A stretch of DNA of 64,000 nucleotides from Janthinobacterium lividum. GTDB taxonomy: Bacteria; Pseudomonadota; Gammaproteobacteria; Burkholderiales; Burkholderiaceae_D. Both the position numbers and the translations under genes were made by a program. The DNA lies in assembly GCF_034424625.1 (NCBI RefSeq), contig NZ_CP139976.1, positions 2,480,001-2,544,000 of the forward strand, in the 5' to 3' direction. Positions 4,072 through 42,128 of this stretch are shown piece by piece; the first letter of the stretch is position 1, and each line of letters starts with the position of its first letter. The notes beneath the pieces are model-generated. The model ran no database searches and was not told the DNA's origin. It saw nothing but the letters and a program-made list of their open reading frames with translations.

Positions 4072-5037
4072 ATGAAAGCGCAATCCCTCGGCGAAGACCT
4101 CTCCGCCTGGCAGCACGAACACGTTTTTGACAGCAGCAATGGCAGGGCCGAACGCCGTGCGCGCATCGTCATGTGGATCACCCTGGCCACCATGGCGCTG
4201 GAAATCCTCGCCGGCTGGTGGTACAACTCCATGGCCTTGCTGGCCGATGGCTGGCATATGAGTTCGCACGCGCTGGCCATCGGCCTGGCCGCGTTTGCGT
4301 ATGCGGCCGCGCGCCGCTATGCGCGCGACCCGCGCTTTGCCTTCGGCACGTGGAAGATCGAGGTGCTGGCCGGTTACACCAGCGCCATCCTGCTGCTGGG
4401 CGTGGCCGTGCTGATGGTGGCCGCTTCCGTCGAACGCCTGTTCTCGCCGCAGCCCATCCACTATCCGCAGGCGATGGCCGTGGCGGCCTTCGGCCTGGTG
4501 GTCAACCTCGTGTGCGCGCTGATCCTCGGCGGGCACCATGACCATGACCATCACCATGGTCACGGCCACGACGAGCATGACCATCACGGCCACCACCATG
4601 GCGAAGACCTGAACATGAAGGCCGCCTACATCCACGTGCTGGCCGATGCCGCCACGTCCGTGCTGGCCATCCTTGCGCTGGGCGGCGCGTGGGCTTACGG
4701 CTGGCGCTGGCTCGATCCCGTGATGGGCATCGCGGGCGCCGTGCTGGTGGCGCTGTGGGCGAAAAAACTGATGCAGGAGACGGGCAAGGTCTTGCTTGAC
4801 CGCGAAATGGACCATCCGGTGGTGGATGAAATCCGCGAGGCGGTGGAAGTGGAAAGCGCCGGCGACACGCCACGCATCGTCGACCTGCACGTGTGGCGGG
4901 TCGGAAAGCAGCTGTATTCGTGCGCCTTGTCCGTCGTCAGCCGCGATCCCGCGCTGACAGGCGCCGAGCTGCGCGCGCGCATCGGCATCCACGAGGAAAT
5001 TGTCCACAGCACCATCGAGATTATTCGCCGTCCTTGA
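4072..5037 (+). CDS. dmeF: CDF-family Co(II)/Ni(II) efflux transporter DmeF
   Basis: This 321-aa cation diffusion facilitator exports divalent metal from the cytoplasm in exchange for protons. Six membrane segments are visible; metal-site residues lie in [11 protein letters not shown] (TM2) and HVLADAATS (TM5). The cytoplasmic loop between TM4 and TM5 is very His-rich (about residues 155-180), typical of DmeF. A C-terminal CDF domain ends the protein. Translation starts at the ATG at 4072 behind AAGGAAA. The adjacent DmeR and operator indicate cobalt/nickel-induced expression. Confidence 0.88.
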
Positions 5038-5128
5038 CAATGATGGCGAAAAAAGCGCGCTGATGCGGGGCGTAGGCACTATACTGTCGGCTTTTACAGC
5101 ACGCGCTGTTCACCAGACAGAGAATAAA

Positions 5129-5470
5129 ATGAGCACATTACCACCATGCCCGCAATGCAAGTCCGAATTCACGTACGAAGATGGCAGCCAGTTGATCTGC
5201 CCTGAATGCGCGCATGAATGGTCGGCCACGGCTGGCGAAGCGGCGGAAGAGGGCGCTCGCGTGTACCGCGATGCGGCCGGCAATATCCTGCAGGACGGCG
5301 ACACGGTCAGCGTCATCAAGGACTTGAAACTGAAGGGCGGCGGCGGTGTCGTCAAGATGGGCACCAAGGTCAAGAACATTCGCCTGGTCGACAGCGACCA
5401 CGATATCGACTGCAAGATCGACGGCTTCGGTTCCATGAGCCTGAAAACCGAGTTCGTGAAAAAAGTCTAA
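5129..5470 (+). CDS. yjdM: zinc-ribbon and alkylphosphonate-utilisation-like protein (PhnA/YjdM)
   Basis: The 113-aa protein has an N-terminal zinc ribbon (CPQCKSEF and CPECAHEW) and the conserved PhnA domain ([15 protein letters not shown] and KNIRLVD). Despite the PhnA name the family is not shown to act in phosphonate breakdown, and its role is unclear. The start at 5129 puts the zinc ribbon at the N-terminus, as in homologues. A strong terminator follows. Confidence 0.88.
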
Positions 5471-5488
5471 GCTCCTCCTTGCCATCCG

Positions 5489-5525
5489 CGGCGCGCCTCG
5501 CATTCCTGCCGGCGCGCCGTTTTTT
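5489..5525 (+). terminator. rho-independent terminator
   Basis: A perfect 9-bp stem, CGGCGCGCC pairing with GGCGCGCCG, is followed by six T, directly after the yjdM stop codon. Confidence 0.85.
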
Positions 5526-5537
5526 ATTTCAGACGCC

Positions 5538-6572
5538 ATGCAAATCGACCATCTCCGCCAGCGCCTGCGCGCCCTGGGTGCCAAGCCCCTGCATGAACAG
5601 CGCGTGCTGCGCGACTGGATACAGGGCCAGCCGCACGACCAGGGCCGGCGCCGCGCCGAGGATTTTTTGCCGCTGCCCGTGCGCGAGGCCTTGCCTGCGC
5701 TCGATCTCGAGCTGCAGGGCATGCTGAAATTGCTCAGCACCCACCCGGGCGCTGACGGTTCGGCGCGCCTGCTGGTGGGACTGCACGATGGCCAGACGGT
5801 GGAAAGCGTGCTGCTGCCGCGCGATGGCTTGTGCGTGTCCAGCCAGGTCGGTTGCGCCGTCGGCTGCCAGTTCTGCATGACGGGCCGCGATGGCTTGATC
5901 CGGCAAGTGAGCAGCGGAGAAATTGTCGCGCAGGTGGTGCTGGCGCGCACCCTGCGCCCCGTGAAAAAAGTCGTCTTCATGGGCATGGGCGAGCCGGCGC
6001 ATAACCTGAACAATGTAATGGAAGCGATCGAGCTGCTGGGCACCGAGGGCAATATCGGCCACAAGAACCTCGTGTTTTCCACCGTGGGCGACCCGCGCGC
6101 CTTCGAGCGCCTGCCGCAAGGGCGCGTCAAGCCGGCGCTGGCCCTGTCGCTGCACACCACCAAGCCGGAGCTGCGCGAACAGTTGCTGCCGCGCGCGCCC
6201 AGGCTGTCGCCGCAGGAACTGGTGGACTTCGGCGAGTCGTATGCGCGCCTGACCGGCTACCCGGTGCAGTACCAGTGGACACTGATGGAAGGGGTCAACG
6301 ATGGCGAGGACGAGATGGATGGCATCGTCGCGCTCTTGCAGGGCAAGTACGCCGTGCTGAACATGATCCCGTATAACACCATCGACGACTTGCCGTTCCA
6401 GCGCCCCAGCTGGGAAAGGGCGCGCGCCATTGCCGCCACCCTGCACGCGCGCGGCGTGCTGACCAAATTGCGCGATTCGGCCGGGCAGGACGTGGAGGGC
6501 GGCTGCGGACAGTTAAGGGCGCGTGAAGCGAAGGGCAAGGTCATTCCCATCCGCGCCAGCGTGACGGCATAG
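5538..6572 (+). CDS. RlmN-family radical SAM RNA methyltransferase
   Basis: This 344-aa protein carries the radical SAM cluster motif CAVGCQFC near residues 106-113 within CVSSQVGC, as in RlmN/Cfr. It also has GMGEPAHN for SAM binding, STVGDPRAFERL, and a C-terminal GCGQL whose Cys matches the mono-methylated Cys of RlmN. RlmN methylates C2 of adenine in 23S rRNA and some tRNAs. Divergence from canonical RlmN (the FCMTG and STVGDP variants) suggests a paralogue whose RNA target could differ. The stop codon TAG is formed by the first bases of a dispersed palindromic repeat. Confidence 0.8.
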   Translation: MQIDHLRQRLRALGAKPLHEQRVLRDWIQGQPHDQGRRRAEDFLPLPVREALPALDLELQGMLKLLSTHPGADGSARLLVGLHDGQTVESVLLPRDGLCVSSQVGCAVGCQFCMTGRDGLIRQVSSGEIVAQVVLARTLRPVKKVVFMGMGEPAHNLNNVMEAIELLGTEGNIGHKNLVFSTVGDPRAFERLPQGRVKPALALSLHTTKPELREQLLPRAPRLSPQELVDFGESYARLTGYPVQYQWTLMEGVNDGEDEMDGIVALLQGKYAVLNMIPYNTIDDLPFQRPSWERARAIAATLHARGVLTKLRDSAGQDVEGGCGQLRAREAKGKVIPIRASVTA

Positions 6573-6599
6573 GTCGGATTAGCGGAGCGTAATCCGACA
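6570..6599. repeat. dispersed palindromic repeat, single unit
   Basis: TAGGTCGGATTAGCG, a GAG loop, then CGTAATCCGAC: an 11-12 bp near-perfect inverted repeat. Two further units of the same family lie at 51069-51163 between malE and malF. The TAG at its left end is the stop codon of the radical SAM gene. Confidence 0.8.
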
Positions 6600-6611
6600 T
6601 TCGCACTCGGC

Positions 6612-7016
6612 TCACACCCCACCCAGCAAATCGTTTTCATTCAAGATCGCAAACGCGATCTCGGGATGTGCGGCCAGGCAGCGGCGCACGGCGGCCGGAA
6701 TGGCGGCGCGCGTCTTGCGGCACAGGCCGGGCTGCTCCAGCAGGCGGATCTGGAAGCCGCGCACGGTGCGCACTTCGCCGCTGCCCGGTGCAATCTGCAA
6801 TTCCACGCCCAGGTTGCTTTTCAGCAGCAGTTGCAGCTTCTGCAACTGTGCATGGGTGGCGATGCCCTCGATGTGCGCCAGCAGGCGCTTTTCTTCCGTC
6901 AGGTTCAGGCGCAGGATGGCAAGGTCCGCCTGCGCATCGTCGAGCAGGCGCTCGCGTTCGCAATCGCACAACTGCGGCGGGCACTCCTTGCGGACTTCAA
7001 AGTCGACGATACGCAT
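6612..7016 (-). CDS. conserved hypothetical protein with N-terminal Cys cluster
   Basis: This 134-aa protein begins MRIVDFEVRKECPPQLCDCERE; three Cys within seven residues could bind metal. A helical middle with Leu/Gln-rich heptads (EEKRLLAHIEG, QLQKLQLLLKS) follows, then a basic end (PGLCRKTRAAIPAAVRRCLAAHPE). The family is not recognised. I used the internal ATG at 7016; an upstream in-frame ATG at 7061 is possible. It converges with the radical SAM gene. Confidence 0.6.
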   Translation of the reverse strand: MRIVDFEVRKECPPQLCDCERERLLDDAQADLAILRLNLTEEKRLLAHIEGIATHAQLQKLQLLLKSNLGVELQIAPGSGEVRTVRGFQIRLLEQPGLCRKTRAAIPAAVRRCLAAHPEIAFAILNENDLLGGV

Positions 7017-7302
7017 GCTGGTGTTCCAGTGACGTTCCAATGGCGATTCCGGATAAAGCAAGTATCGTCCGCCGCCTGGCGCATGTCAATCAGCGCGGGC
7101 TGACGATCAGGCGCCAGCGTATCGGCCCCTGCCCGCTGCTGCGCTGGTGGTGGTGTTGCGGCGGCATGGCGTGGCCTTCCGTCGAGACGAGGTGGGCGCG
7201 CCCCATTCCGGCACACAATCGTGCGCGGCCTTGACCGCGTGCCTTGGCGTGCGCGCCGCCCTGTGTTGTAATGTTGATCATCCGGACTGAACACGCAAGG
7301 CC

Positions 7303-7980
7303 ATGAGAACCCGCATCAAGATCTGCTGCATCGCTTCCATCGACGAAGCGCAACTGGCCATTGCCGCCGGCGCCGACGCGCTGGGCCTGGTGGCGGCCAT
7401 GCCATCCGGCCCCGGCCCGATTCCCGACGCGCGCATCGCGCAGATCGCCGCCTGGACGCCGCCGCCCGTGGCCACGTTCCTGCTGACTTCCGAGACGACG
7501 GCACAAGCCATCGCCGAACACGTGCGCGCCACGCAGCCGTCCACCGTGCAGATCGTCAGCCATATCGACCCCGGCGAAGTGGCGCAGCTGGCGCGCTTGC
7601 TGCCGCACGTGCGGCGCGTGCAGGTGATCCACGTGGAAGGGCCACAGGCGCTGGCGCTGATACCCGCCTATGCGCCCCATGTGCATGCTTTTTTGCTCGA
7701 TTCGGGCCGCCCCGGCGCGCAGGTCCCGGAACTGGGCGGCACGGGCCGCACGCATGACTGGTCCGTCAGCGCGCGCTTCGTGCGCGCCAGTCCCCGTCCC
7801 GTTTTCCTGGCAGGCGGGCTGGACGACACCAACGTAGCCGATGCGCTGCGCCAGGTGCGCCCCTACGGCATCGACCTGTGCTCGCGCGTGCGCACGGATG
7901 GCAAGCTCGATGTCATGAAACTGGCCTTGCTGATGGCGGCCGTGCGCGACGTGGATGCGGCGCTGTATGCGGAGGGTTAA
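7303..7980 (+). CDS. trpF: phosphoribosylanthranilate isomerase
   Basis: The 225-aa TIM barrel converts N-(5'-phosphoribosyl)anthranilate to CdRP in tryptophan synthesis. Family marks are KICCI at the N-terminus (catalytic Cys), AFLLDS with the catalytic Asp, the phosphate-binding GGTGRTHDW, and FLAGGL. No other trp gene is nearby; trpF usually sits with trpB and trpA, so this is either a detached trpF or a second copy. It runs into the convergent LysR gene with a 4-bp overlap. Confidence 0.8.
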   Translation: MRTRIKICCIASIDEAQLAIAAGADALGLVAAMPSGPGPIPDARIAQIAAWTPPPVATFLLTSETTAQAIAEHVRATQPSTVQIVSHIDPGEVAQLARLLPHVRRVQVIHVEGPQALALIPAYAPHVHAFLLDSGRPGAQVPELGGTGRTHDWSVSARFVRASPRPVFLAGGLDDTNVADALRQVRPYGIDLCSRVRTDGKLDVMKLALLMAAVRDVDAALYAEG

Positions 7981-8885
7981 TCCGCCGCTGCCAGCGCATT
8001 CATCTCGCGCACGAACGCCTCCGTAAACGCGGCCACCATGCCGCTCGCCGCGCGCGGCGAGATCAGGCCGACGACGGAATGCGACTCTTCGTCCGGCAGC
8101 GCAATAAAACGCACGCCGGGCGGCGCCACCAGGCGCATGCTGTCAGGGACGATGGCGATGCCCATATTGGCTTCGATCAGGTTCAACTGCGATGTCTTGC
8201 GCGACAGGGCGCGCGCCGCCTTGGGGAAAAAGCCCTGCGCCAGGCACAGGCCCGCCACCAGGTAGCTCAGGCCTCCGCGGTCCTTGTGCGGGATCGAGAC
8301 GAAGGCTTCGTCGCGCAATGCCGCGATGGTCGTGCGCTCCAGCGCGGCCAGGGGCGACGTCGCTGACACGGCCACCACCAGCTTTTCTGTAAACAGCTCG
8401 CGCACGACGATGTTGGCATGCTTGCGCAGGGTGGGCAGGCGCACCAGGCCCAGGTCGGCGCGGCCTTCCTCGATGTCGGCGGCCTGGTTTTCCGACGACC
8501 CTTTTGATACATCGAGCGAAACGCCGGGGAACTGCGCCAGCAGGCGGTTCAGCACCGCGCCGATGGCGGGCGTGAGGGTGACGGAGCTCGAATGCAGCAG
8601 GCGGATGATGCCTTGCGCCCCTTGTCCCACGTGGCGCGTCTGGCGCACGGTTTCGTCGATGTCTTCGAGGATGCGCTTGGCCCGCTCATAAAAGACCTGT
8701 CCCGCGGGCGTCAGTTCGATATGGCGCGCGTCGCGCGTGAGCAGCAGAGCCTGTACTTCACCTTCCAGCTCCTTGATTTGCCGGCTCAGGGCCGACTGCG
8801 CGATATATAATTTTTCCGCCGCGCGCGAGTAGCTGCCCGCATCGACGACTTCGACAAAATAGCGGAACTGTCTGATGGAAATCAA
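7977..8885 (-). CDS. LysR-family transcriptional regulator
   Basis: The 302-aa protein has an N-terminal winged helix-turn-helix (FRYFVEVVDAGSYSRAAEKLYIAQSALSRQIKELE) and a two-lobed effector-binding domain (IIRLLHSSSV to AAFTEAF). No divergent metabolic target is obvious; the 32-aa peptide gene starts about 100 bp away on the other strand. The ligand is unknown. Confidence 0.85.
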   Translation of the reverse strand: MISIRQFRYFVEVVDAGSYSRAAEKLYIAQSALSRQIKELEGEVQALLLTRDARHIELTPAGQVFYERAKRILEDIDETVRQTRHVGQGAQGIIRLLHSSSVTLTPAIGAVLNRLLAQFPGVSLDVSKGSSENQAADIEEGRADLGLVRLPTLRKHANIVVRELFTEKLVVAVSATSPLAALERTTIAALRDEAFVSIPHKDRGGLSYLVAGLCLAQGFFPKAARALSRKTSQLNLIEANMGIAIVPDSMRLVAPPGVRFIALPDEESHSVVGLISPRAASGMVAAFTEAFVREMNALAAAD

Positions 8886-14522: not shown

Positions 14523-14712
14523 GGCAGGCGGACAGGCCAACCCGGGCGCTCGCTTCCGTAAAGTACTGGCGCTCGTGGAATTCGCCCTGCTTGCCGATGT
14601 TGAACGAGGCGACGGGGCGGTGATAGCCCATCACGCGGGTCCAGATTTCGCAGCGCTGGCGTTCGGTGTCGAGCAGAGTGATGGCGGGAGTGAAGTCGGG
14701 ACGTGCGTTCAT
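14512..14712 (-). CDS. nrdD: glycyl-radical peptide of class III ribonucleotide reductase (separate C-terminal module)
   Basis: This 66-aa protein contains CEIWTRVMGYHRPVASFN, in which the Gly of RVMGY is the expected radical site, then GKQGEFHERQYF. In single-chain NrdD proteins this segment is the extreme C-terminus. Here it is its own ORF whose ATG overlaps the TGA of the catalytic ORF (ATGA). The overlap and clean start argue for a natural split rather than a frameshift. It must dock into the catalytic chain for radical transfer. Confidence 0.8.
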   Translation of the reverse strand: MNARPDFTPAITLLDTERQRCEIWTRVMGYHRPVASFNIGKQGEFHERQYFTEASARVGLSACHGG

Positions 14713-16457
14713 GGCGTTTCCTTGAGTGGGTGAGCGAGATCGGACTGCTTGCGCGCGATCAGTTCCGCGTCGCAGGTGGGACAGAATTCATGTTTGCCGG
14801 CCAGGTAGCCGTGGCGCGGGCAGATGGAAAACGTGGGCGTGACCGTGATGTAGGGCAGCGAGAAGCGGCTCAGGGCGCGTTTCACCAGCTCGCGGCAGGC
14901 ATTCGCGTCCGACAGCGCTTCCGTCATGTACAGGTGCAGTACCGTGCCGCCCGTGTACTTGCGCTGCAGCGCGTCCTGCAATTCCAGCGCCTCGAACGGG
15001 TCGTCCGTATGGCCGACGGGCAGCTGCGACGAATTCGTGTAGTACGGGTTGTCGACCGTGCCCGCCTGCAGGATGGCGGGGAAGCGCTTGCGGTCTTCGC
15101 GGGCGAAGCGGTAGGTCGTGCCTTCGGCCGGCGTCGCTTCCAGGTTGTACATATGGCCCGTCTCTTCCTGGAATTGCACCATGCGGGCGCGCACGTGGTC
15201 GAGCAGGCGCACGGCCAGCGCATGGCCTGCTGGCGCCGTGATGTCGTAGGCGTCGCCGCTGAAATTGCGGATCATTTCGTTGATGCCGTTCACGCCCAGG
15301 GTGGAGAAGTGGTTGCGCAGGGTGCCAAGGTAGCGCTTCGTGTACGGGAACAGGCCTTGCTGCATCAGTTCCTCGATGGTGCGGCGCTTGATTTCCAGGC
15401 TCGTCTTGCCCAGTTCCAGCAGGCGGTCCAGGTCCGCCATCAGGGCTGGCTCGTCGCCGCGCCATCGGTGGCCCAGGCGCGCGCAGTTGATCGTCACCAC
15501 GCCCAGGGAACCCGTCTGCTCGGCGGAACCGAACAGGCCGTTGCCCCGTTTCAGCAGTTCGCGCAAGTCCAGCTGCAAGCGGCAGCACATGGAGCGGATC
15601 ATGTTCGGCTTGAGTTCCGAATTGATGAAGTTCTGGAAGTAGGGCAGGCCGTAGCGGGCCGTCATCTCGAACAGGCGTTCCGCGTTTTCGCTATGCCAGT
15701 CGAAATCCTCGGTGATGTTATAGGTGGGGATGGGGAAGGTGAAGACTCTGCCCTTGGCATCGCCCGCCATCATGATCTCGATGTAGGCGCGGTTGATCAT
15801 GTCCATCTCCACCTGCAGCTCGCCATAGCTGAAGTCCATCTCCTGGCCGGCGATGACGGGAATCTGCTCGCGCAGGTCGTCCGGGCAGACCCAGTCGAAG
15901 GTGAGGTTGGTAAACGGCGTCTGCGTGCCCCAGCGCGATGGCACGTTGAGGTTGAAGATCAGCTCCTGCATGTACTGGCGCACGTCTTCGTAGCGCAGGC
16001 TGTCCTTGCGGATGTAGGGTGCCATGTAGGTGTCGAAGGAGCTGAACGCCTGCGCGCCGGCCCACTCGTTTTGCAGGGTGCCGAGAAAATTGACGATCTG
16101 GCCGATGGCGCTCGACATGTGCTTGGGCGGACCGGATTCGATCTTGCCCGGCACGCCATTCAAGCCTTCGTGCAGCAGGGTGCGCAGCGACCAGCCGGCG
16201 CAATAGCCGGCCAGCATGTCGAGGTCGTGGATGTGCAGCGCCGCTTCGCGGTGCGCCGCGCCCACTTCCGGCGGATATACCTGGTCCAGCCAGTAGTTGG
16301 CGATGACCTTGCCCGACACGTTGAGTATCAGGCCGCCCAGCGAGTAGCCCTGGTTGGCGTTGGCGTTGACACGCCAGTCGCGCCGCTCCAGGTATTCATT
16401 GATGGACGCGGCGACATCGACCTGGCCGCGTGTGGGGGAAACTGCATTTGTCGTCAT
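14709..16457 (-). CDS. nrdD: class III anaerobic ribonucleoside-triphosphate reductase, catalytic chain
   Basis: The 582-aa chain reduces NTPs to dNTPs without oxygen. Recognisable segments are HIHDLDMLAGYCAGWSL, NLTFDWVCP, TFPIPTYNITEDFDW, SMCCRLQLDL with the active-site Cys pair, and a zinc site (CPRHGYLAG and CPTC) near the end. The chain then stops and the glycyl-radical segment is encoded by the next ORF. No N-terminal ATP-cone (usual VVKRDG motif) is seen, so allosteric activity control may be absent. GGAGG four bases upstream fixes the start at 16457. Its promoter carries two NrdR boxes and an FNR-like site. Confidence 0.88.
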   Translation of the reverse strand: MTTNAVSPTRGQVDVAASINEYLERRDWRVNANANQGYSLGGLILNVSGKVIANYWLDQVYPPEVGAAHREAALHIHDLDMLAGYCAGWSLRTLLHEGLNGVPGKIESGPPKHMSSAIGQIVNFLGTLQNEWAGAQAFSSFDTYMAPYIRKDSLRYEDVRQYMQELIFNLNVPSRWGTQTPFTNLTFDWVCPDDLREQIPVIAGQEMDFSYGELQVEMDMINRAYIEIMMAGDAKGRVFTFPIPTYNITEDFDWHSENAERLFEMTARYGLPYFQNFINSELKPNMIRSMCCRLQLDLRELLKRGNGLFGSAEQTGSLGVVTINCARLGHRWRGDEPALMADLDRLLELGKTSLEIKRRTIEELMQQGLFPYTKRYLGTLRNHFSTLGVNGINEMIRNFSGDAYDITAPAGHALAVRLLDHVRARMVQFQEETGHMYNLEATPAEGTTYRFAREDRKRFPAILQAGTVDNPYYTNSSQLPVGHTDDPFEALELQDALQRKYTGGTVLHLYMTEALSDANACRELVKRALSRFSLPYITVTPTFSICPRHGYLAGKHEFCPTCDAELIARKQSDLAHPLKETP

Positions 16458-34265: not shown

Positions 34266-34340
34266 GTTGCTTGTCATCCGAACCGGTGCTTGCAGGTGGC
34301 TTGTGCAATAATTTCATTTCCTTAATGGAAGAATATTGCC

Positions 34341-35921
34341 ATGCCGTCTTTTAACCTGTTCCAGCGCCTGTCCCAGGCCCCCACCAAACCCAAGTCCGCG
34401 CCCGCCGCGCGGCAGTTCGACGTGGCGGACCTGTACCAGGGCCCCATCGCGCTGGGAGCGGAAGGCGAGGCGCAAGCGCGGCCGTTCGATGAAAAGCTGC
34501 GCCAGGCGTATTTCTGGATCGTCAATCACGCCATCATCAGCCCCCATTACGACATCGAATACAACGATGGCCCGTCGCAGACGTATTCCGTGGGCGACAG
34601 CCGCCGCACGCTGAATCTGCCGTCGGCGCAAAGCTATTCCAGCTTCATTTTGCTGCCTCTGCTGACATTTGCCACGCGCCGCAAATGCCTGTTCGTCGGC
34701 GGGCCGGGGCGGGGCAAGACGGCCAGCGCCCTGCTGATGGGCGTGCTGGCCGGCTCCACCGTCAAGGAAGTCAAGCGCGCCATGCAGCATGGCCACCCGC
34801 AGATGACGGTGGCCGATTTGCTGGGCAATCCGCTGCCGGCGGACCTGGTGAACGCGCAAAGCATGGACGATATCCGCATCGCCTGGCGCGCCTGGCTGGG
34901 CATGCGCGTGAAGATCGTCGATGAATACAACCGCATCCCCACGCGCACGCAAAGCGCGCTGCTCACCGTCATGGGAGACAATTACGCGGAAGTGCTGAAC
35001 CATATTTACGAATGCCCGGAAGCGGCCTGGTATCTGACGGCCAACGACGACCAGGGCGGCGGCACGTACCAGGTGATCGAAGCGCTGCGCGACCGGGTCG
35101 ACGTGACGGTGCAGGCGCTCGCTTTCAACCCGCGCTTCCTGAACGAACTGCTGCTGCGCGTGGAAGAAAACGTGCGGCCCGAAGAGCTGGTGCCGCCCGA
35201 TATCATCTTCACGGAAGGGGAGGTGGATCAGATCGGCGCATCCATCCGCCAGGTGGCCATACCCGACGCCGTACGCCGCCGCCTGGAATTCTTTGCCAGC
35301 CAGTTCGAGCTGTTCGAGACGGCCGGCGGCCAGTTTGAATACATGACCAAGGATACGGCCCGCCTGGCCGGCGCCGACCGGGGCGCCGCGCAGGCGGCCG
35401 ACAATGGGCGCGACCGCCTGAAAGACCTGGGCTGCCAGACCTTGAACGGCATTTCCGTGCGCACCCTGATGGCGCTGATGATCTACGCCAAGGCCATGGC
35501 TTATTTCCGCGGCAATGGCGAGGTGGCGCTGGAAGACTTGCGCCAGGTGCTGCCGTTCGTCCTGCATAACAAGCTGCAGCCGGACCCGGATGCGCCATTT
35601 TTCGCGCTGCCGGAAAACGCCGCCTACCGCAGCGACAGGCTGGGCTGGCTGCGCCGCCTGTTCGATTTGTCGAACGATGAATTCAACCGCCTGGATCTGG
35701 ACCGCGATGATCCTGTCGGCGTGCTGTCGGCCGAATTCGACCTGGGCCTCGATGGCGTCAGCGAGCGCGAGACCCTGGCGCGCCTGAACCGCATCGAAAA
35801 GCTGATCGGCGAACGCACGAAGGGCAGAAAATTGTACGGTCCCCTGTACGACGACCTGCTGAAGCTCAAGTACCTGCACCAGCGCTATACGAACTACCGC
35901 ACTTGGCTGCGTTCGCAATGA
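34341..35921 (+). CDS. MoxR-family AAA+ ATPase
   Basis: The 526-aa ATPase has Walker A GGPGRGKTAS (about residues 119-128), Walker B VKIVDEYNRI (near 192) and sensor WYLTANDDQ. The 110-residue N-terminal extension is unusual for MoxR. A C-terminal helical part continues to 526 aa, longer than the roughly 330-aa standard. MoxR ATPases work with VWA proteins to remodel or insert metal into targets; the partner here is the metallopeptidase/VWA gene three positions downstream. It opens the seven-gene operon. Confidence 0.85.
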   Translation: MPSFNLFQRLSQAPTKPKSAPAARQFDVADLYQGPIALGAEGEAQARPFDEKLRQAYFWIVNHAIISPHYDIEYNDGPSQTYSVGDSRRTLNLPSAQSYSSFILLPLLTFATRRKCLFVGGPGRGKTASALLMGVLAGSTVKEVKRAMQHGHPQMTVADLLGNPLPADLVNAQSMDDIRIAWRAWLGMRVKIVDEYNRIPTRTQSALLTVMGDNYAEVLNHIYECPEAAWYLTANDDQGGGTYQVIEALRDRVDVTVQALAFNPRFLNELLLRVEENVRPEELVPPDIIFTEGEVDQIGASIRQVAIPDAVRRRLEFFASQFELFETAGGQFEYMTKDTARLAGADRGAAQAADNGRDRLKDLGCQTLNGISVRTLMALMIYAKAMAYFRGNGEVALEDLRQVLPFVLHNKLQPDPDAPFFALPENAAYRSDRLGWLRRLFDLSNDEFNRLDLDRDDPVGVLSAEFDLGLDGVSERETLARLNRIEKLIGERTKGRKLYGPLYDDLLKLKYLHQRYTNYRTWLRSQ

Positions 35922-36403
35922 ATTACGCTCTGAATATCGATCACTGCCGCGGGTTTCTCGATGCGCTGGCCATGTTGAACAGCGAGGCCAGCGACCTGTG
36001 CGCAACTTACGAGCTGCAACGCCTGCCCGATGCGCCAGACCTGGCCACGGCGCTGGGCTTGCGCATCGAAGATTATGCCTTGACCGTCATCGAACCCGCG
36101 CGCGACTTGCCGGCGGCCTTGTGGCAGATCGCGGCGGTGCCGTGCGGGCGCGCGCAGCTGGAGCAGCTATGCCAGCGCTGGTTCTTCTCGTCGGATCACA
36201 TGCGCACGGCGCCGCCCGGCCGTTTTCGCGCCTGCCTCGTCAACGCCTTCCTCGAAGCGCTGGACATGTCGTTGACCGGATTCACCGTGCACGCCGTGAC
36301 GATGACGCCGCCACCTGGTGTCTGGTACGCGATTCACTGGGACGAGATCGCCTTCGAGTCAGGGGATGAACGCTATCTGCTGCACTTTTCGCACAGCGAT
36401 TGA
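35918..36403 (+). CDS. unknown protein of the MoxR operon (first)
   Basis: The 161-aa soluble alpha/beta protein has Cys residues at about 10, 28, 76, 85 and 106. The C-terminal half has beta-like strands (FTVHAVTMTPPPGVWYAIHWDEIAFES). No family is recognised. Its ATG overlaps the MoxR TGA (ATGA), so it is translated in step with the ATPase. Confidence 0.72.
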   Translation: MNYALNIDHCRGFLDALAMLNSEASDLCATYELQRLPDAPDLATALGLRIEDYALTVIEPARDLPAALWQIAAVPCGRAQLEQLCQRWFFSSDHMRTAPPGRFRACLVNAFLEALDMSLTGFTVHAVTMTPPPGVWYAIHWDEIAFESGDERYLLHFSHSD

Positions 36404-36412
36404 CAGGCTGCG

Positions 36413-37384
36413 ATGATTTCTCCTGCCTTTTCCTCGATACTTGCCAGCGGCCGCGCCCAGTTCAATGCGCGCGCTGTGGAGGCGCGCCGGCGCTTTCCCG
36501 CGCTCGACATGGCCGCCTTTGGCGCCTTCCTGCACGACGGCGTCGATCCGCTGGTGGTGGCCTTGGCCGCCGCCGCGCCCGAGCGCGTGGGCGGCGCTAC
36601 CTTTGCCGCCTATGACATGGCGCTGGAACTGGTGGGCCATGGTCTGGCCGGGCCTGCCGCGAAAAATCCGTTCCTGAATACCGTCTGGCGCGAACTGGCG
36701 CCCTCATTTGCGCCGTTGCTGGCCACCGCGCACGTGGATGTATTGGGCATGCTCAGCAACGCCGCCATCCACATTGGCGCCGTTGCGGGAGCGCGGCCCG
36801 CGCAATGGCAGGCCGGAATGGCTGCCGTGGCGCCGCAAGTCGGCAGCGTCGCGCAGCTGCGTGCCGTGGGCCAGGTGCTGGCCTGGCGCGCCGGCGTCGC
36901 ACATTTCCGCCTGGGTGCGCTGGCCGCCGCCGACACCTTGCCACAAGCGCTGGCGCTGGCCGCCTTTGGCGAGCCGGGCGCGCAATGGCCGCAGGTGCAT
37001 GCGCAGTTGCTGGCGAATCCCTGGCGCGGCAATGCCGAGGGCAGGGCGTTCGGCAGCTTCAGCGGCCTCGGTGGCGACTTCGGCACCCCGCCGCAAGTGC
37101 GCGCGACAAAGGACGGTTTTGTCGTGCGCAGCGCCGAGCGCCACTACCTGCTGGTGGCCGACGCCTATGGCGCCGTGCTGCACAGCGCGACGGCGCAGGA
37201 GTTCGAGCAGGCGCCAAGTGCCATGCCGGCGTCCGTGCGCCTCGAGGGGGCGACCGTGCATATCGGCGCGCGCAGCATCGCGCTCGACCTGCCGGCCGGC
37301 GACATCGCCATCGCCGCGAATGCGCATACGCTGGCCGTCACGTCACCGTGGACGCATGCGATCCGTTTGCTGCCGCTCGCATGA
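36413..37384 (+). CDS. unknown protein of the MoxR operon (second)
   Basis: The 323-aa protein has an Ala-rich all-helical first 200 residues (with GAFLHDGVDPLVVALAAAAPERVGG) and a C-terminal 120-residue beta-rich segment (GFVVRSAERHYLLVADAYGAVLH, VHIGARSIALDLPAGDIAIAANA). No catalytic motif or signal peptide is seen. It could be a scaffold or adaptor for the ATPase and the peptidase. It starts 9 bp after the previous gene and overlaps the next by 4. Confidence 0.72.
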   Translation: MISPAFSSILASGRAQFNARAVEARRRFPALDMAAFGAFLHDGVDPLVVALAAAAPERVGGATFAAYDMALELVGHGLAGPAAKNPFLNTVWRELAPSFAPLLATAHVDVLGMLSNAAIHIGAVAGARPAQWQAGMAAVAPQVGSVAQLRAVGQVLAWRAGVAHFRLGALAAADTLPQALALAAFGEPGAQWPQVHAQLLANPWRGNAEGRAFGSFSGLGGDFGTPPQVRATKDGFVVRSAERHYLLVADAYGAVLHSATAQEFEQAPSAMPASVRLEGATVHIGARSIALDLPAGDIAIAANAHTLAVTSPWTHAIRLLPLA

Positions 37385-39144
37385 AGAACGATGTCGACTT
37401 GATCGACCGCTGGCGCGCCGCCTGGCCCGAGGCCCTGGCCGCGTGGAGCAAATTTACGCGCCTGCGCGACCCGAACCTGTGCGCCAGCCGCGTCGAGGCC
37501 AGCAGGCAGGGCTTGTCCGGCAGCTTCGCCATGATCCGCTTGCTGGACCAGAGCGTGGTGGTGGACTTGCCGCTGGTGACGGAGCTGGGCCTGGACGACT
37601 ATGCGCTGGAAGTGCTTGCCCATGAAATCGGCCACCACATTCTCGCGCCGGGCAGTGCCAGCGACCAGTTCCGCCTGCTGGCGCGCATGCGCCGCGCCTT
37701 GCCGACCCTGGAGCAGCATGCGCCCATGGTGGCCAACCTGTACACGGACCTGTTCATCAACGACCGTTTGCAGCGCCAGGCGAATCTGCGCATGGCCGAT
37801 ATCTACCGCAAGCTGGAGCATGGGCGCTCTGCGCAAGCCGATGCCAAGGGTAGCGGCGGCGTATGGACCCTGTACATGCGCATCTATGAAAATCTGTGGC
37901 AGCTGCAAAAGGGCGAACTCGGAGGCGGTAGTGCAGACGAACGCCTGGACACGGATGCCTGGCTGGGCGCGCGCCTGATCCGTGTTTACGCGAACGACTG
38001 GATGCTGGCGGCGGGCCGCTTCGCCACCTTGCTGCTGCCTTACCTGGTGGAAGACATGGATGCCTTGAGCCCGAGCCGCTATCTGCTCGACACGCGCGAC
38101 GCGGCCCGTGGCTGCCAGACCTATGGCGCGCAGCAGATCGAGGACGACGAGGCGGACGGCGCCATCCACCCGGTGCACGACAAGCGCATTTCCGGCCTTG
38201 ATGGCGAGGAACCTGTGACCGAGGCGCCCGCCAGGCAGGGCGGCGGGCAACTGCGCGAACCGTTCGAGCTGGGCGATATCTTAAAGGCGTCGGGCGTGAA
38301 CCTGAGCGACCATGAAATCGCCATCCGCTATTACCGCGAACGGGCATTGCCGCACCTGGTGGCGTTCCCCAGCCGCCCCGCGCCCGAGTCGCAGGAACCG
38401 CAGATGGAAGGGCTGGAAGCATGGGAAATCGGCGACCCGCTGGAAGACATCGACTGGCTGCAATCGGTGATGCAATCGCCGCGCCCCGTGCCGGGCGTGA
38501 CCACCGTGCGCCGCGTGTACGGCCGCGAACCGGCGCGCGCCACCGATGCCGTGCCCGTCGACCTGGACATGTACGTGGACAGTTCCGGCTCCATGCCGAA
38601 CCCGCAGGCGCATACCTCGTTCCTGACACTGGCTGGCGCCGTGATCGCCTTGTCCGCCCTGCGCGCCGGCGCGAAGGTGCAGGTGACCCTGTGGAGCGGC
38701 AAGAACGAGGTGATGCAAACGCCAGGCTTCGTGCGCGATGAAGACATGATCCTGGGTGTGCTGACGGAATTTTTTGGCGGTGGCACCTGTTTCCCCATCC
38801 ACCGCCTGCGCCAGACCTATGCGGCCAGGCGCGAACGGTCCGCGCACATCCTGATGATTTCCGACGACGGCATCACCACCATGTTCGACAAGGATGAACT
38901 GGGCAACAGCGGCTGGGATATCTCGGCGAAAGCGCTGGCGCAGGGCGGCGCGGGCGGCACCATGGCCCTGAACCTGGAGCGCGACTGGGATGGCGCGGCG
39001 GCCCATAAGTGGCTGCAGCAGACCTATGACGATCTGAAGCGCGCGCGCCGCGAGCAGGGCTGGGATATCCACGCCGTCGAGCGCTACGAGGACTTGCTGG
39101 ACTTTGCGCGCGCGTTCAGCCGGCGCCACTACATACAACAATGA
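37381..39144 (+). CDS. zinc metallopeptidase/VWA-domain protein (DUF2201-like)
   Basis: The 587-aa protein has an N-terminal domain with HEIGHH (residues 81-86), the zinc-metallopeptidase signature, and a C-terminal VWA domain with a MIDAS motif DMYVDSSGSM near 396 and ISDDG later. A metallopeptidase domain fused to a VWA-like domain and placed beside a MoxR ATPase fits the DUF2201 type. The linker is acidic and probably disordered. The MIDAS presumably grips the ATPase or substrate while the peptidase acts; this is inference. ATGA overlap upstream. Confidence 0.83.
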   Translation: MKNDVDLIDRWRAAWPEALAAWSKFTRLRDPNLCASRVEASRQGLSGSFAMIRLLDQSVVVDLPLVTELGLDDYALEVLAHEIGHHILAPGSASDQFRLLARMRRALPTLEQHAPMVANLYTDLFINDRLQRQANLRMADIYRKLEHGRSAQADAKGSGGVWTLYMRIYENLWQLQKGELGGGSADERLDTDAWLGARLIRVYANDWMLAAGRFATLLLPYLVEDMDALSPSRYLLDTRDAARGCQTYGAQQIEDDEADGAIHPVHDKRISGLDGEEPVTEAPARQGGGQLREPFELGDILKASGVNLSDHEIAIRYYRERALPHLVAFPSRPAPESQEPQMEGLEAWEIGDPLEDIDWLQSVMQSPRPVPGVTTVRRVYGREPARATDAVPVDLDMYVDSSGSMPNPQAHTSFLTLAGAVIALSALRAGAKVQVTLWSGKNEVMQTPGFVRDEDMILGVLTEFFGGGTCFPIHRLRQTYAARRERSAHILMISDDGITTMFDKDELGNSGWDISAKALAQGGAGGTMALNLERDWDGAAAHKWLQQTYDDLKRARREQGWDIHAVERYEDLLDFARAFSRRHYIQQ

Positions 39145-39145
39145 C

Positions 39146-39739
39146 ATGCATACTCACGGTCCCCACCTCGAAACCCTGACCCACCGCCTGGCCGACACCC
39201 CCGTCGAATTCCTCGCCGAGCCGCGCATCGCCGGCGTCGCCAATGCGCAAGCCGTGGCGGTGGCCGCGCTGGTCAACGATATTTTGCTGCTGCATGGCGC
39301 GCGTGCGCCGGCGGCATCCTTGCAGGGTTTTATCGGCGCGCAGGTGAAGGCGGACCGCAACCGGCTGGCGCTGGCCATGATCCTGTGCTGGCTGCTGGCC
39401 GACGACTGGTTCATCGGCCAGCAGTTGCCGCAGCACGATTTGTTGCAGGTGCTGGGCGAGGCGGCGCGCGAACTGGCCGCTGCCACGCCGGCCCACCAGT
39501 TCACGCAAGACCCCGAGCGGCGCGAGGAACTGGCGCGCATCGTGCTGGCGCGCCTGGGCTTTCGGCCTCGCGACGAAAGCGTGGCGCAGGCCACGGACCG
39601 CTTGTCCGCCATCAGCGGCACGGAGCGCCGCCGCCTGCTCGAAGCGAGCCGGCTGGCCGAGCAGCGCGCGCGCGAAATCCGCGAAGCGCTGGCAAAGAAG
39701 GCGGCCGAGGAATCGGCCGACAAGTGGTCGCGCGAATGA
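39146..39739 (+). CDS. unknown helical protein of the MoxR operon (third)
   Basis: The 197-aa, mostly helical protein has a charged Arg/Glu/Ala-rich tail (SAISGTERRRLLEASRLAEQRAREIREALAKKAAEE) that could form a coiled coil. The N-terminal part is His/Leu-rich (THGPHLETLTHRLADTPVEFL). No family is recognised. It lies one base after the VWA gene and overlaps the ligase gene by 4 bp. Confidence 0.7.
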   Translation: MHTHGPHLETLTHRLADTPVEFLAEPRIAGVANAQAVAVAALVNDILLLHGARAPAASLQGFIGAQVKADRNRLALAMILCWLLADDWFIGQQLPQHDLLQVLGEAARELAAATPAHQFTQDPERREELARIVLARLGFRPRDESVAQATDRLSAISGTERRRLLEASRLAEQRAREIREALAKKAAEESADKWSRE

Positions 39740-41103
39740 GCGTGGACGTCAATTTGCCGGGCGGCGCCTGGGAATCGGACTGCGACTACTGTCCCACCCT
39801 GACGCAGGCGGGCGCGCGCATGCTGGAAAAACTGCGCAGCCATCCCGCGGCACCCCGGTACCGCAACCGCAGCGGCAACAAGCTGCTGGCCGGGGAGGTC
39901 GAAGCGCTGCGCGCCTACGAGCAGGAAGTCATGCAGGCGGAGATCGGCTGGAGCAAAGACGCGCCGCTGCCCTGGCTGGCGGATTTTCTCAGGACGACCT
40001 ACGCCACCGTGCCGCATTACCGCGCCTGCGGTTCGCCGCCCGCGCGTCTTGCGGACGTGGCGCCCATCAGCCGCGCCGAACTGGCCTACGACATCGCCGC
40101 CTTCGTGCCCGACGACGCGGACCTGGCGCGCATGATCAACTTCCAGACGACAGGCACGACTGGCCACCCGCTGCTGATCGCCTCGCACCCGCTGGTGGCG
40201 GGGCGCTACCTGGCCTTCCACAAACGCGCGCTGTACCGCTTCGGCGTCACCCTGCGCCATGGCGCGGGCCAGGTGGGCGTGATGCTGCTGGGGCATCAGC
40301 GCCGCTGCTTCACCTATGTCTCCGTCACGCCGACGATGAACGAATCGGGCCTGGCGAAGATCAACCTGCACGAGGACGACTGGCGCGACCCGGGCGACCG
40401 CGCGCGCTACCTGGACGCCATGGCGCCCGAGCTGATTGCGGGCGACCCCATCTCGTTTGCCGAGCTCCTGACCTTGCCCATGGCGCACAAGCCGGCCGCG
40501 CTGCTGTCCGTGTCGATGATGCTGTTGCCCGGCATGCGCGCGCGCCTCGAAGCGGCGTTTGGCTGCCCCGTGCTCGATATCTATTCGCTCAATGAAGTGG
40601 GGCCCGTGGCCGTCTACGATGAACAGGCGGGTGGCCACGTGCTGCTGCAGCACCGGCTGTACGTGGAAATCCTCGATAGCGCGGGCCAGCCCGTGCCGGA
40701 TGGCGCACGCGGCGAAATTACCGTGACGGGCGGCTTCAATTTTTGCCTGCCGCTGGTTCGCTACCGCACCGGTGATTACGCTTCGCTGGCGCATGGCCCG
40801 CACGGTCCCGTGCTGGTGGGCCTGGCCGGCCGCAGTCCCCTGCGCTACAGGACGATCAATGGCGAATGGATCAACAATATCGACATTACGCATGCCCTGA
40901 AACCGCTGGCCATCGCCCTGTTCGGCGTGCACCAGCATGGCGACGGCGCCATCGCGCTGCGCCTGGCGCCGAACGCCATGCCGCAGGCTGACCGGGCGCG
41001 CTCCTTGCTCGCGCCTTTTTTCGGCGCCATCGCGGTCGAGACCTTGCTGGCGGAAGACAAGATCATTCAATACACTTCGGATTTGCAGGAAGCAGTGGCA
41101 TGA
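39736..41103 (+). CDS. AMP-forming acyl-adenylate ligase, phenylacetate-CoA-ligase-like
   Basis: The 455-aa ANL-type enzyme has the adenylation P-loop FQTTGTTGHP (near residue 138), LDIYSLNEVGPVAVYDE, and LVRYRTGDYASL (the A8-like hinge). Such enzymes activate carboxylates as acyl-AMP before thioester formation. The N-terminal CDYCP motif is an unusual addition. No acyl carrier protein is encoded nearby, so CoA or a protein Lys/Cys acceptor is possible. It is coupled on both sides by ATGA overlaps. Confidence 0.8.
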   Translation: MSVDVNLPGGAWESDCDYCPTLTQAGARMLEKLRSHPAAPRYRNRSGNKLLAGEVEALRAYEQEVMQAEIGWSKDAPLPWLADFLRTTYATVPHYRACGSPPARLADVAPISRAELAYDIAAFVPDDADLARMINFQTTGTTGHPLLIASHPLVAGRYLAFHKRALYRFGVTLRHGAGQVGVMLLGHQRRCFTYVSVTPTMNESGLAKINLHEDDWRDPGDRARYLDAMAPELIAGDPISFAELLTLPMAHKPAALLSVSMMLLPGMRARLEAAFGCPVLDIYSLNEVGPVAVYDEQAGGHVLLQHRLYVEILDSAGQPVPDGARGEITVTGGFNFCLPLVRYRTGDYASLAHGPHGPVLVGLAGRSPLRYRTINGEWINNIDITHALKPLAIALFGVHQHGDGAIALRLAPNAMPQADRARSLLAPFFGAIAVETLLAEDKIIQYTSDLQEAVA

Positions 41104-42128
41104 ACCTTTATAAACGCGGCCTCGTGGTCGGTAAATTCTGCCCGCTGCACCAGGGCCACGAACTGTTGCTCCATCGTGCGCAAGAGGCCAGCGAAGAACT
41201 GCTGGTGGTCAGCTACACCAAGCCCGAATTTCCCGGTTACGAGCCGGCGCGCCGGGAACGGTGGCTGCGCGCGCAATTCCCGCAGGCGCGCATCGTCGTG
41301 CTGGACGACGCGCGCCTGGCCGCCCTGTGCGCGGCGCGCGGCGTGCCGGCGCGTACGCTGCCGCACAACGACGACGATGGCGAGCTGCATCGCCACTTCA
41401 TGGGCTGGCTGTGCTGGACGGTGCTGGCGCTGCCCGTCGATGCCGTCTTCACCAGCGAGGACTATGGCCCCGGTTTTGCGCGGGTGCTGGAACGGCATTA
41501 TGCAAGCGGGCCGGTGGCGCATGTGAGCGTGGACCAGGCGAGAACTGTGGTGCCCGTGTCCGGCACGCGGGCCAGGCAAGACCCGCATGCGCACAGCGCC
41601 TTCCTGTCGCCGATTGTGCGTGCCGATTTTGTCACGCGCGTGTGCGTGCTCGGTGGCGAATCGAGCGGCAAGACGACCTTGGCGCAAGCACTGGCGGCGC
41701 ATTTCGAGACGGCCTGGGTAGCCGAATATGGCCGCGAGTTGTGGGAAATCCAGGATGGCATATTGAACTATGACGATCTGCTGAAGATCGGCCGGGAACA
41801 GCTGCGCCGCGAAGCGCAGGCGCTATTGGCTGCGCGGCGCTGGCTGTTTTGCGATACCTCGCCCATGACGACGTATTTTTACTGTGTCGAGATGTTTGGC
41901 AGGGCCGAACAGGAATTGGCGCAGCTGGCAGAACACCGTTACGATCTGGTGCTGCTGTGCGCCCCAGACTTCCCCTTCATCCAGGATGGCACGCGCCGCG
42001 ACGAGGATTTTCGCGCGCGCCAGCATGCGTGGTACCAGGACGAGCTGGCGCGGCGGGGGATCGCCTTTGTCGATGTGTCCGGCACGGTGGCCGACAGGGT
42101 CAGGCAGGTGGCGCAAGTGTTGCGCTGA
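41100..42128 (+). CDS. NadR-like NMN adenylyltransferase/nicotinamide riboside kinase
   Basis: The 342-aa two-domain protein has an N-terminal nucleotidyltransferase with GKFCPLHQGHELLL (HxGH at 17-20) and a C-terminal kinase with P-loop GGESSGKTT (near 186) and WVAEYGREL. It lacks the N-terminal HTH of enteric NadR. It would make NAD from nicotinamide riboside or NMN using ATP. Association with a MoxR/metallopeptidase operon and an adenylate ligase is unexpected; these share adenylate chemistry. It ends inside the convergent tetR gene (29-bp overlap). Confidence 0.83.
   Translation: MNLYKRGLVVGKFCPLHQGHELLLHRAQEASEELLVVSYTKPEFPGYEPARRERWLRAQFPQARIVVLDDARLAALCAARGVPARTLPHNDDDGELHRHFMGWLCWTVLALPVDAVFTSEDYGPGFARVLERHYASGPVAHVSVDQARTVVPVSGTRARQDPHAHSAFLSPIVRADFVTRVCVLGGESSGKTTLAQALAAHFETAWVAEYGRELWEIQDGILNYDDLLKIGREQLRREAQALLAARRWLFCDTSPMTTYFYCVEMFGRAEQELAQLAEHRYDLVLLCAPDFPFIQDGTRRDEDFRARQHAWYQDELARRGIAFVDVSGTVADRVRQVAQVLR

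Follow-up and report, generated by a model that had tools for sequence, protein, structure and literature searches.

We analysed a window of 64,000 nucleotides from the Janthinobacterium lividum genome (contig NZ_CP139976.1, here C1; C1:2480001-2544000 within a genome of 6.76 Mb), in which seven genes, g1 to g7, form one compact run. Four of the junctions are ATGA overlaps (at 35918, 37381, 39736 and 41100) and the other two are intergenic gaps of 9 and 1 bp, a packing that an initial annotation made from the sequence alone had described and that is borne out by the coordinates and the sequence. The motifs read in that annotation, namely the Walker motifs, HEIGHH, DMYVDSSGSM, FQTTGTTGHP, HQGH (of the HxGH type) and GGESSGKTT, are all present in the translations. 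The combination that it proposed, a MoxR ATPase with a metallopeptidase/VWA protein, a ligase and a nicotinamide mononucleotide (NMN) adenylyltransferase/nicotinamide-riboside kinase, is supported, and the unit is conserved across genomes. The closest named relatives, judged by g4, belong to Janthinobacterium, an ordinary genus of soil and water, with identities of up to 96%.

Table 1. Features of the seven-gene run, with positions in the window (MIDAS, metal-ion-dependent adhesion site).
Feature	Position	Strand	Description	Matches and motifs
g1	34341-35921	+	526 aa, MoxR-type AAA+ ATPase	PF07726, PF17863, Walker motifs
g2	35918-36403	+	161 aa, Janthinobacterium-only protein, no family assigned	
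g3	36413-37384	+	323 aa, core protein with helical N-terminal part and beta-rich C-terminal part	
g4	37381-39144	+	587 aa, zincin-like domain followed by VWA domain	HExGHH, MIDAS motif
g5	39146-39739	+	197 aa, helical core protein, constant neighbour of g6	
g6	39736-41103	+	455 aa, PaaK-like adenylate-forming ligase	
g7	41100-42128	+	342 aa, NadR-like NMN adenylyltransferase and nicotinamide-riboside kinase	
TGCAATAATTTC	34304..34315	+	promoter-like conserved stretch in the intergenic region before g1	

A pattern scan for g4 in a genome collection of 84,980 species returned 44 loci, and whole-genome samples added more. We compared 61 loci, made up of the window, 20 loci from Janthinobacterium and 40 others; of these 40, 12 run into the end of a contig and one (L098) repeats another (L032), which leaves 27 uncut loci, each with 1.5 kb or more of sequence flanking its outermost family matches on either side. 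Close relatives each count as a locus of their own. Genes g1, g3, g4, g5 and g6 are present in 27/27 uncut non-Janthinobacterium loci, g1 being split across two reading frames in L041 (7366-8827, from a metagenome-assembled genome (MAG) of the Leptospiraceae), and a linked NadR-like g7 is found in 24/27, with the NMN adenylyltransferase half only in L036. The hosts include Proteobacteria, Verrucomicrobia, Chloroflexi and spirochaetes, and the gene order is nearly constant: g1-g3-g4-(radical SAM)-g5-g6-(PnuC)-g7. Because g1, g3, g4, g5 and g6 occur together in every uncut locus and their catalytic motifs are kept, six of the seven genes, all but g2, constitute a conserved cassette, more than chance would bring together. 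The initial annotation had taken all seven as one set, which holds for six of them: g2 is found in the window and in 16/20 Janthinobacterium loci, against 0/40 of the others (model threshold E 1e-6), and is a Janthinobacterium addition rather than a member of the conserved set. Within the genomes and literature that could be searched, the genes co-occur in other genomes and their order matches no characterised pathway, the two points on which that annotation had staked its proposal.

The families also appear to have been inherited together. Their pairwise distances correlate with r values of 0.78-0.94 (21 pairs of seven families, outside Janthinobacterium and with no correction for species relatedness), and the g4 tree (34 rows) mostly follows phylum. 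Within it, L089 from the Spirochaetota-centred sample lies beside L093 from the window's order, the latter on a long branch whose placement is unsure. The g4 of L022, an Acidobacteria-labelled MAG, is 71% identical to that of the window and falls among Betaproteobacteria, and this contig may be misbinned.

Some loci carry additional genes. A radical S-adenosylmethionine (radical SAM) enzyme gene is present in 8/27 uncut non-Janthinobacterium loci and absent from the window; its CxxxCxxC motif is kept in 10/10 sequences, and the 6/20 cassette genomes with a match at E<=1e-30 each have it at the cassette, so that it appears to be an optional enzyme that serves the cassette alone. In the Chloroflexi, a proline-racemase-family gene (L036 8810-9823) and a DAO-type flavin adenine dinucleotide (FAD) oxidase gene (L037 8604-9944) each lie between g3 and g4, and the L037 cassette further carries a PNPOx-like enzyme gene (14639-15268) and an esterase gene. 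In L090, g4 and g5 are separated by a ZIP metal-transporter gene of opposite orientation.

The cassette is rare and chromosomal. Matches to g4 were found in 3/200 genomes of a sample drawn from the window's order, 3/398 from its phylum and 14/145 from its family, the window's own genome included, and in 1/251 genomes of a Chloroflexota-centred sample (the centre itself), 8/149 of a Spirochaetota-centred sample (two already known) and 2/387 of a Verrucomicrobiota-centred sample (one being the centre). All eight genomes of the window's genus listed by name in the family sample carry the cassette (111 negatives are not named). Neither 50,697 phage records nor 72,556 plasmid records contain a match to g4 at E<=1e-5. 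On its flanks, downstream TetR and short-chain dehydrogenase/reductase genes are common to 11/20 Janthinobacterium loci and an upstream glutathione S-transferase-like gene to 4/20 (E<=1e-20), and none of six tested flanking genes lies beside the cassette in any other genus. The stretch TGCAATAATTTC has one match in the window, with zero expected by chance, and is found upstream of g1 in 18/20 Janthinobacterium loci (all except L016 and L019). Since it is kept before g1 even where the upstream gene differs, the cassette likely has its own promoter at this site; a consensus promoter scan detected no sigma-70 site at the stretch. In the Janthinobacterium loci L009, L017, L018, L034 and partly L026, inverted repeats of the GGGTCNGACC type were seen in the intergenic region before g1, and the one version of this repeat that was tested is absent from the window.

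The first three conserved genes are predicted to encode a motor of the MoxR/VWA type. The g1 protein carries both the AAA+ domain and the lid of the MoxR family, scoring 32.2 bits against PF07726 (AAA_3, cut-off 27) and 31.2 bits against PF17863 (AAA_lid_2, cut-off 22.7); Walker A, Walker B and a loose sensor-1 pattern are kept in 53/53 full-length relatives, and the nearest solved chain is 2r44 (E 1.2e-5). A magnesium/cobalt chelatase identity was rejected for g1, with a BchD-ChlD score of 18.4 bits where the cut-off is 499.55. In g4, the HEIGHH motif lies in the N-terminal part, and the VWA_2 score of 18.1 bits is under the Pfam cut-off of 27, yet the DxSGS motif is present; HExGHH and DxSGS are both kept in 58/58 full-length relatives, which identifies the linked VWA partner with its MIDAS motif in spite of the low profile score. 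Two further motifs, NLYxDxxxN and SD[DE]G, are kept in 57/58 and 53/58 relatives, respectively. DUF2201 proteins have an HExxH metallopeptidase motif followed by a VWA domain, and the DUF2201-type label first given to g4 is right as to this architecture, seen in 58/58 relatives; as a family assignment it does not stand, the DUF2201 models matching neither the window protein at E<=1 nor 10 g4 relatives at E<=0.1. The model of g3, confident as is that of g5, is helical in its N-terminal two thirds and beta-rich in its C-terminal third, which may be propeller-like. For g2, g3 and g5 there is no Pfam match at E<=1; likewise g2 and g3 have no NCBIfam match at E<=1, and g5 has two weak ones, far below threshold. 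Two observations concern the surroundings of the motor genes: in L087, a protein kinase gene and a gene for a VWA-like protein with a DTTGS motif (by eye) lie beside g1-g3-g4 on the opposite strand (5682-8326), and in L086, from the Spirochaetota-centred sample, the gene directly 5' of g1 (6475-8277) encodes a protein of 600 aa that has VWA and CsgG-like matches and is lipoprotein-like by eye.

The ligase module is a pair, g5 and g6, which adjoin in 27/27 uncut non-Janthinobacterium loci; L037 and L048 carry this pair in two copies, and L036 has a second g5 in two pieces. The g6 protein belongs to the PaaK-like adenylate-forming ligases, and its closest solved relatives are phenylacetate-CoA ligases (9s3l, E 7.8e-18, profile A2). 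Its match to NF045666 has an E value of 4.1e-22 and 78.7 bits (cut-off 300), and an identity as PaaK phenylacetate-CoA ligase proper was rejected, the equivalog score being 43.9 bits against a cut-off of 646.3. Among 52 full-length relatives the phosphate-loop motif is kept in 51, Y-x-x-NE-x-G in 49 and the C-terminal lysine pattern in 45, while the g6 of L089 fails all four ligase patterns. The g5 model has a pLDDT (predicted local distance difference test) of 93.0 and ends in a C-terminal helix of 39 residues (158-196), and it has no Foldseek match at E<=0.001.

The third module bears on nicotinamide adenine dinucleotide (NAD). The g7 protein is termed here NadR-like rather than NadR because its equivalog score against TIGR01526 (E 1.2e-50, 172.6 bits) is under the cut-off of 341.15. 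It has both catalytic halves, lacks the N-terminal helix-turn-helix (HTH) part and is matched by the NadR structures 9x6f, 8x7f, 1lw7 and 6gye; HxGH and ISxTxxR are kept in 45/45 full-length relatives and the kinase P-loop in 44/45. In two Chloroflexi loci, L036 and L048, g7 is reduced to the NMN adenylyltransferase half, a hint that the important step is NMN adenylylation. The cassettes of relatives carry PnuC, a nicotinamide-riboside transporter, in 15/27 uncut loci, and the window has none. PnuC passes PF04973, and TIGR01528 gives 75.9-109.4 bits for the copies of L102, L023, L042 and L089 (cut-off 42.45). PnuC and g7 can move together: L092 has both upstream of g1, and in L089 they are found side by side on the other strand at a distance of 2.4 kb.

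PnuC is present in 19/20 cassette genomes. Among the 145 genomes of the window's family, close relatives again counted one by one, it occurs in 86, comprising 14/14 cassette genomes and 72/131 without the cassette, and at least two matches are found in 13/14 and 14/131, respectively, two of the three matches in genome G691 being pieces at contig ends. The second PnuC of the window's genome (G000:C1:857048-857575, L102) lies away from the cassette and, with the copies of two relatives (L105, L107), falls into a clade with six cassette PnuCs from other genera (support 0.985). The cassette PnuCs are not monophyletic, those of L037, L042, L045, L046, L089 and L092 lying on the other side of the tree. 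Another copy in the window's genome, at C1:4649591 (L103), belongs to a different clade from L102. Since L102 groups with cassette PnuCs and L103 does not, the L102 PnuC together with g7 is the probable route of riboside salvage in Janthinobacterium. At L103 (G000:C1:4642500-4657500), positions 4156-7835 hold a thiamine pyrophosphate (TPP) riboswitch ahead of a gene that is TonB-receptor-like by eye and, on the other strand, the PnuC-family transporter gene and that of a NadR relative aligning to g7 over the kinase half only. The transporter also passes TIGR01528, with 90.5 bits, and on account of the kinase-only NadR relative and the riboswitch this locus possibly serves thiamine salvage rather than riboside salvage. 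In Paucimonas (L023), 93 bp separate g1 from the end of an upstream gene for an NrtR-like regulator (PF21906, 75.3 bits, cut-off 27), the only such neighbour among the loci compared, and beyond it a weak nicotinamidase-like gene lies on the other strand.

The predicted activities, the kept active-site motifs and the joint inheritance of the genes are well supported by these comparisons; of a client protein and of the cassette's product we speak by inference. Our preferred reading, held tentatively and at less than even confidence, is that this rare, co-inherited chromosomal cassette encodes a protein maturation or modification machine fed by riboside salvage. In the manner of NorQ and NorD, the g1 ring would act on g4 through its VWA arm and thereby open or remodel a client protein, with g3 as the constant third member of the motor. 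The g5-g6 pair would activate a carboxylate as acyl-AMP (or acyl-coenzyme A), and the activated group would be attached to the client or used in assembling a group that the client needs, with the assistance of the radical SAM enzyme in some hosts. PnuC would import nicotinamide riboside and g7 convert it to NMN and NAD, giving the process its own supply of either as substrate or redox partner, and the zincin domain of g4 may trim or gate the client; protein modification with a gated peptidase, as first proposed for this locus, stays a live inference. This reading is supported by the conserved gene set, the mobile but linked PnuC-g7, the PnuC provided in trans and the NrtR-like neighbour, by the duplication of g5-g6 as a unit, the correlated distances and the kept motifs, and by the NorQD and jumbo-phage MoxR precedents discussed below, together with the ZIP gene inside the L090 cassette.

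Several observations weigh against this reading. No gene that accompanies the cassette is recognisable as that of a client; the neighbours that recur are, by eye, antisense open reading frames and generic or housekeeping genes. The g6 protein scores far under the cut-off of every ligase model, and no radical SAM copy at E<=1e-30 occurs anywhere in 14/20 cassette genomes, the gene being absent from 19/27 loci. NadA is encoded in 18/20 cassette genomes, the two without it being Chloroflexi, and riboside salvage is therefore mostly not essential for NAD as such. Linked g7 is missing from L033, L035 and L041. In the genomes of L033 and L035 a PnuC adjoins a NadR relative elsewhere, the one in the L033 genome (L108 7705-8742) keeping the kinase P-loop and lacking both searched NMN adenylyltransferase patterns; for L041, a search of the 8 kb downstream found no g7. 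Finally, g1-g3-g4 stand alone in L087, with no g5, g6 or g7 within 9 kb downstream. L087 groups in the g4 tree with L086, which has g5 and g6, and this suggests that L087 lost the pair, at least from the 9 kb searched.

An alternative that we regard as unlikely is a small-molecule pathway in which an amino or pyridine carboxylic acid is turned into a metabolite, a metallophore or a cofactor: g5-g6 would activate the acid, radical SAM and flavin enzymes would tailor it, and the MoxR/VWA core would be an inserter resembling magnesium and cobalt chelatases. The Chloroflexi extras (oxidase, PNPOx-like enzyme, esterase and racemase-family enzyme), the tandem g5-g6 pairs and the weak similarity of g1 to chelatase subunits (E 7e-4) fit this proposal, but the DAO, PNPOx and racemase genes each occur in one locus only among those compared, Pfam and NCBIfam recognise no chelatase large subunit or carrier protein in the window's cassette, and the BchD-ChlD score of g1 is far under its cut-off.

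We give little credence to a conflict system, in which the MoxR/VWA core would detect infection or damage and a signal would be made, or NAD restored under NAD-based attack, by the ligase and NAD enzymes. MoxR-VWA ternary systems, some with a radical SAM effector, are proposed as conflict systems in the part of PMC7159879 considered here, and the distribution of the cassette across the six genome samples is patchy. Against this stand the conserved gene order and catalytic motifs, the presence of the cassette in all eight named genomes of the window's genus, the absence of g4 matches from the phage and plasmid collections, and the lack of a recognised effector domain, though g2, g3 and g5 have no assigned function. 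PADLOC models at E<=1 gave a single weak match (mad8 for g7, E 0.011), by which a known anti-phage defence system was rejected, and the conflict role suggested in the initial annotation found no positive support.

It is just as improbable, in our judgement, that g7 and PnuC serve NAD salvage alone and are linked to the MoxR and ligase genes by co-regulation without biochemical coupling. The relocation of PnuC in Janthinobacterium, the three uncut loci without linked g7 and the NrtR-like regulator gene beside one cassette would agree with this, but g7 is linked in 24/27 loci, in several phyla and at differing positions, and 18/20 hosts tested have NadA. Very unlikely is a new prosthetic group or protein tag made from a pyridine nucleotide, for which g7 would build NAD or an NAD-like dinucleotide out of riboside taken up by the cell, g5-g6 (with radical SAM where present) would use an acyl-adenylate to modify or couple it and g1-g3-g4 would insert it into a client; if true, it would be a second, unrelated route from NAD metabolism to an enzyme-bound cofactor, next to that of the nickel-pincer nucleotide.

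MoxR/VWA machines are widespread, and to our knowledge few of their clients have been identified and neither ligase nor NAD modules are known in this setting. Among the papers listed from an open-licence library, none could be recognised as describing the present gene combination, subscription papers not being covered. CbbQ-CbbO and CoxD-CoxE are MoxR/VWA metal-insertion chaperones similar to NorQ-NorD. MoxR motors act through VWA partners, as described for NorQD in the part of PMC13036017 considered here, and the cassette resembles NorQ-NorD in having a MoxR-type AAA+ ATPase gene beside that of a VWA protein with a MIDAS motif; it differs in the intact zincin motif of g4, the constant third core gene g3 and the absence of a recognised client enzyme nearby. 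In group 2.2 jumbo phages, the part of PMC7824862 considered describes a MoxR protein whose VWA co-chaperone is likewise fused to an N-terminal metallopeptidase domain, with a proposed role in virion assembly; the present system is bacterial, comes with g3, ligase and NAD genes, and has a g4 unmatched in the phage records. The ternary conflict systems share with it, as far as the same part of PMC7159879 goes, the MoxR and VWA proteins with further components, whereas neither their defining third component nor an effector domain is recognised in the cassette: no second chaperone of the FtsH-type AAA+ kind appears among the Pfam matches of the proteins encoded by g1 to g7 of the window, and g3 and g5 have no convincing Pfam match, VMAP and iSTAND profiles not being among those compared. 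With PaaK-like ligases and the DVU_1553 family ligase, g6 shares the core adenylate-forming motifs and differs in scoring under every curated cut-off and in having a small constant neighbour, g5. The NAD module corresponds to PnuC-NadR riboside salvage in combining PnuC with a bifunctional NMN adenylyltransferase/riboside kinase; here it is embedded in a cassette, without the HTH part and, in L036 and L048, with the adenylyltransferase half only. Gene linkage in this way connects a MoxR motor with two kinds of defined chemistry, namely acyl-adenylation and the conversion of riboside to NAD.

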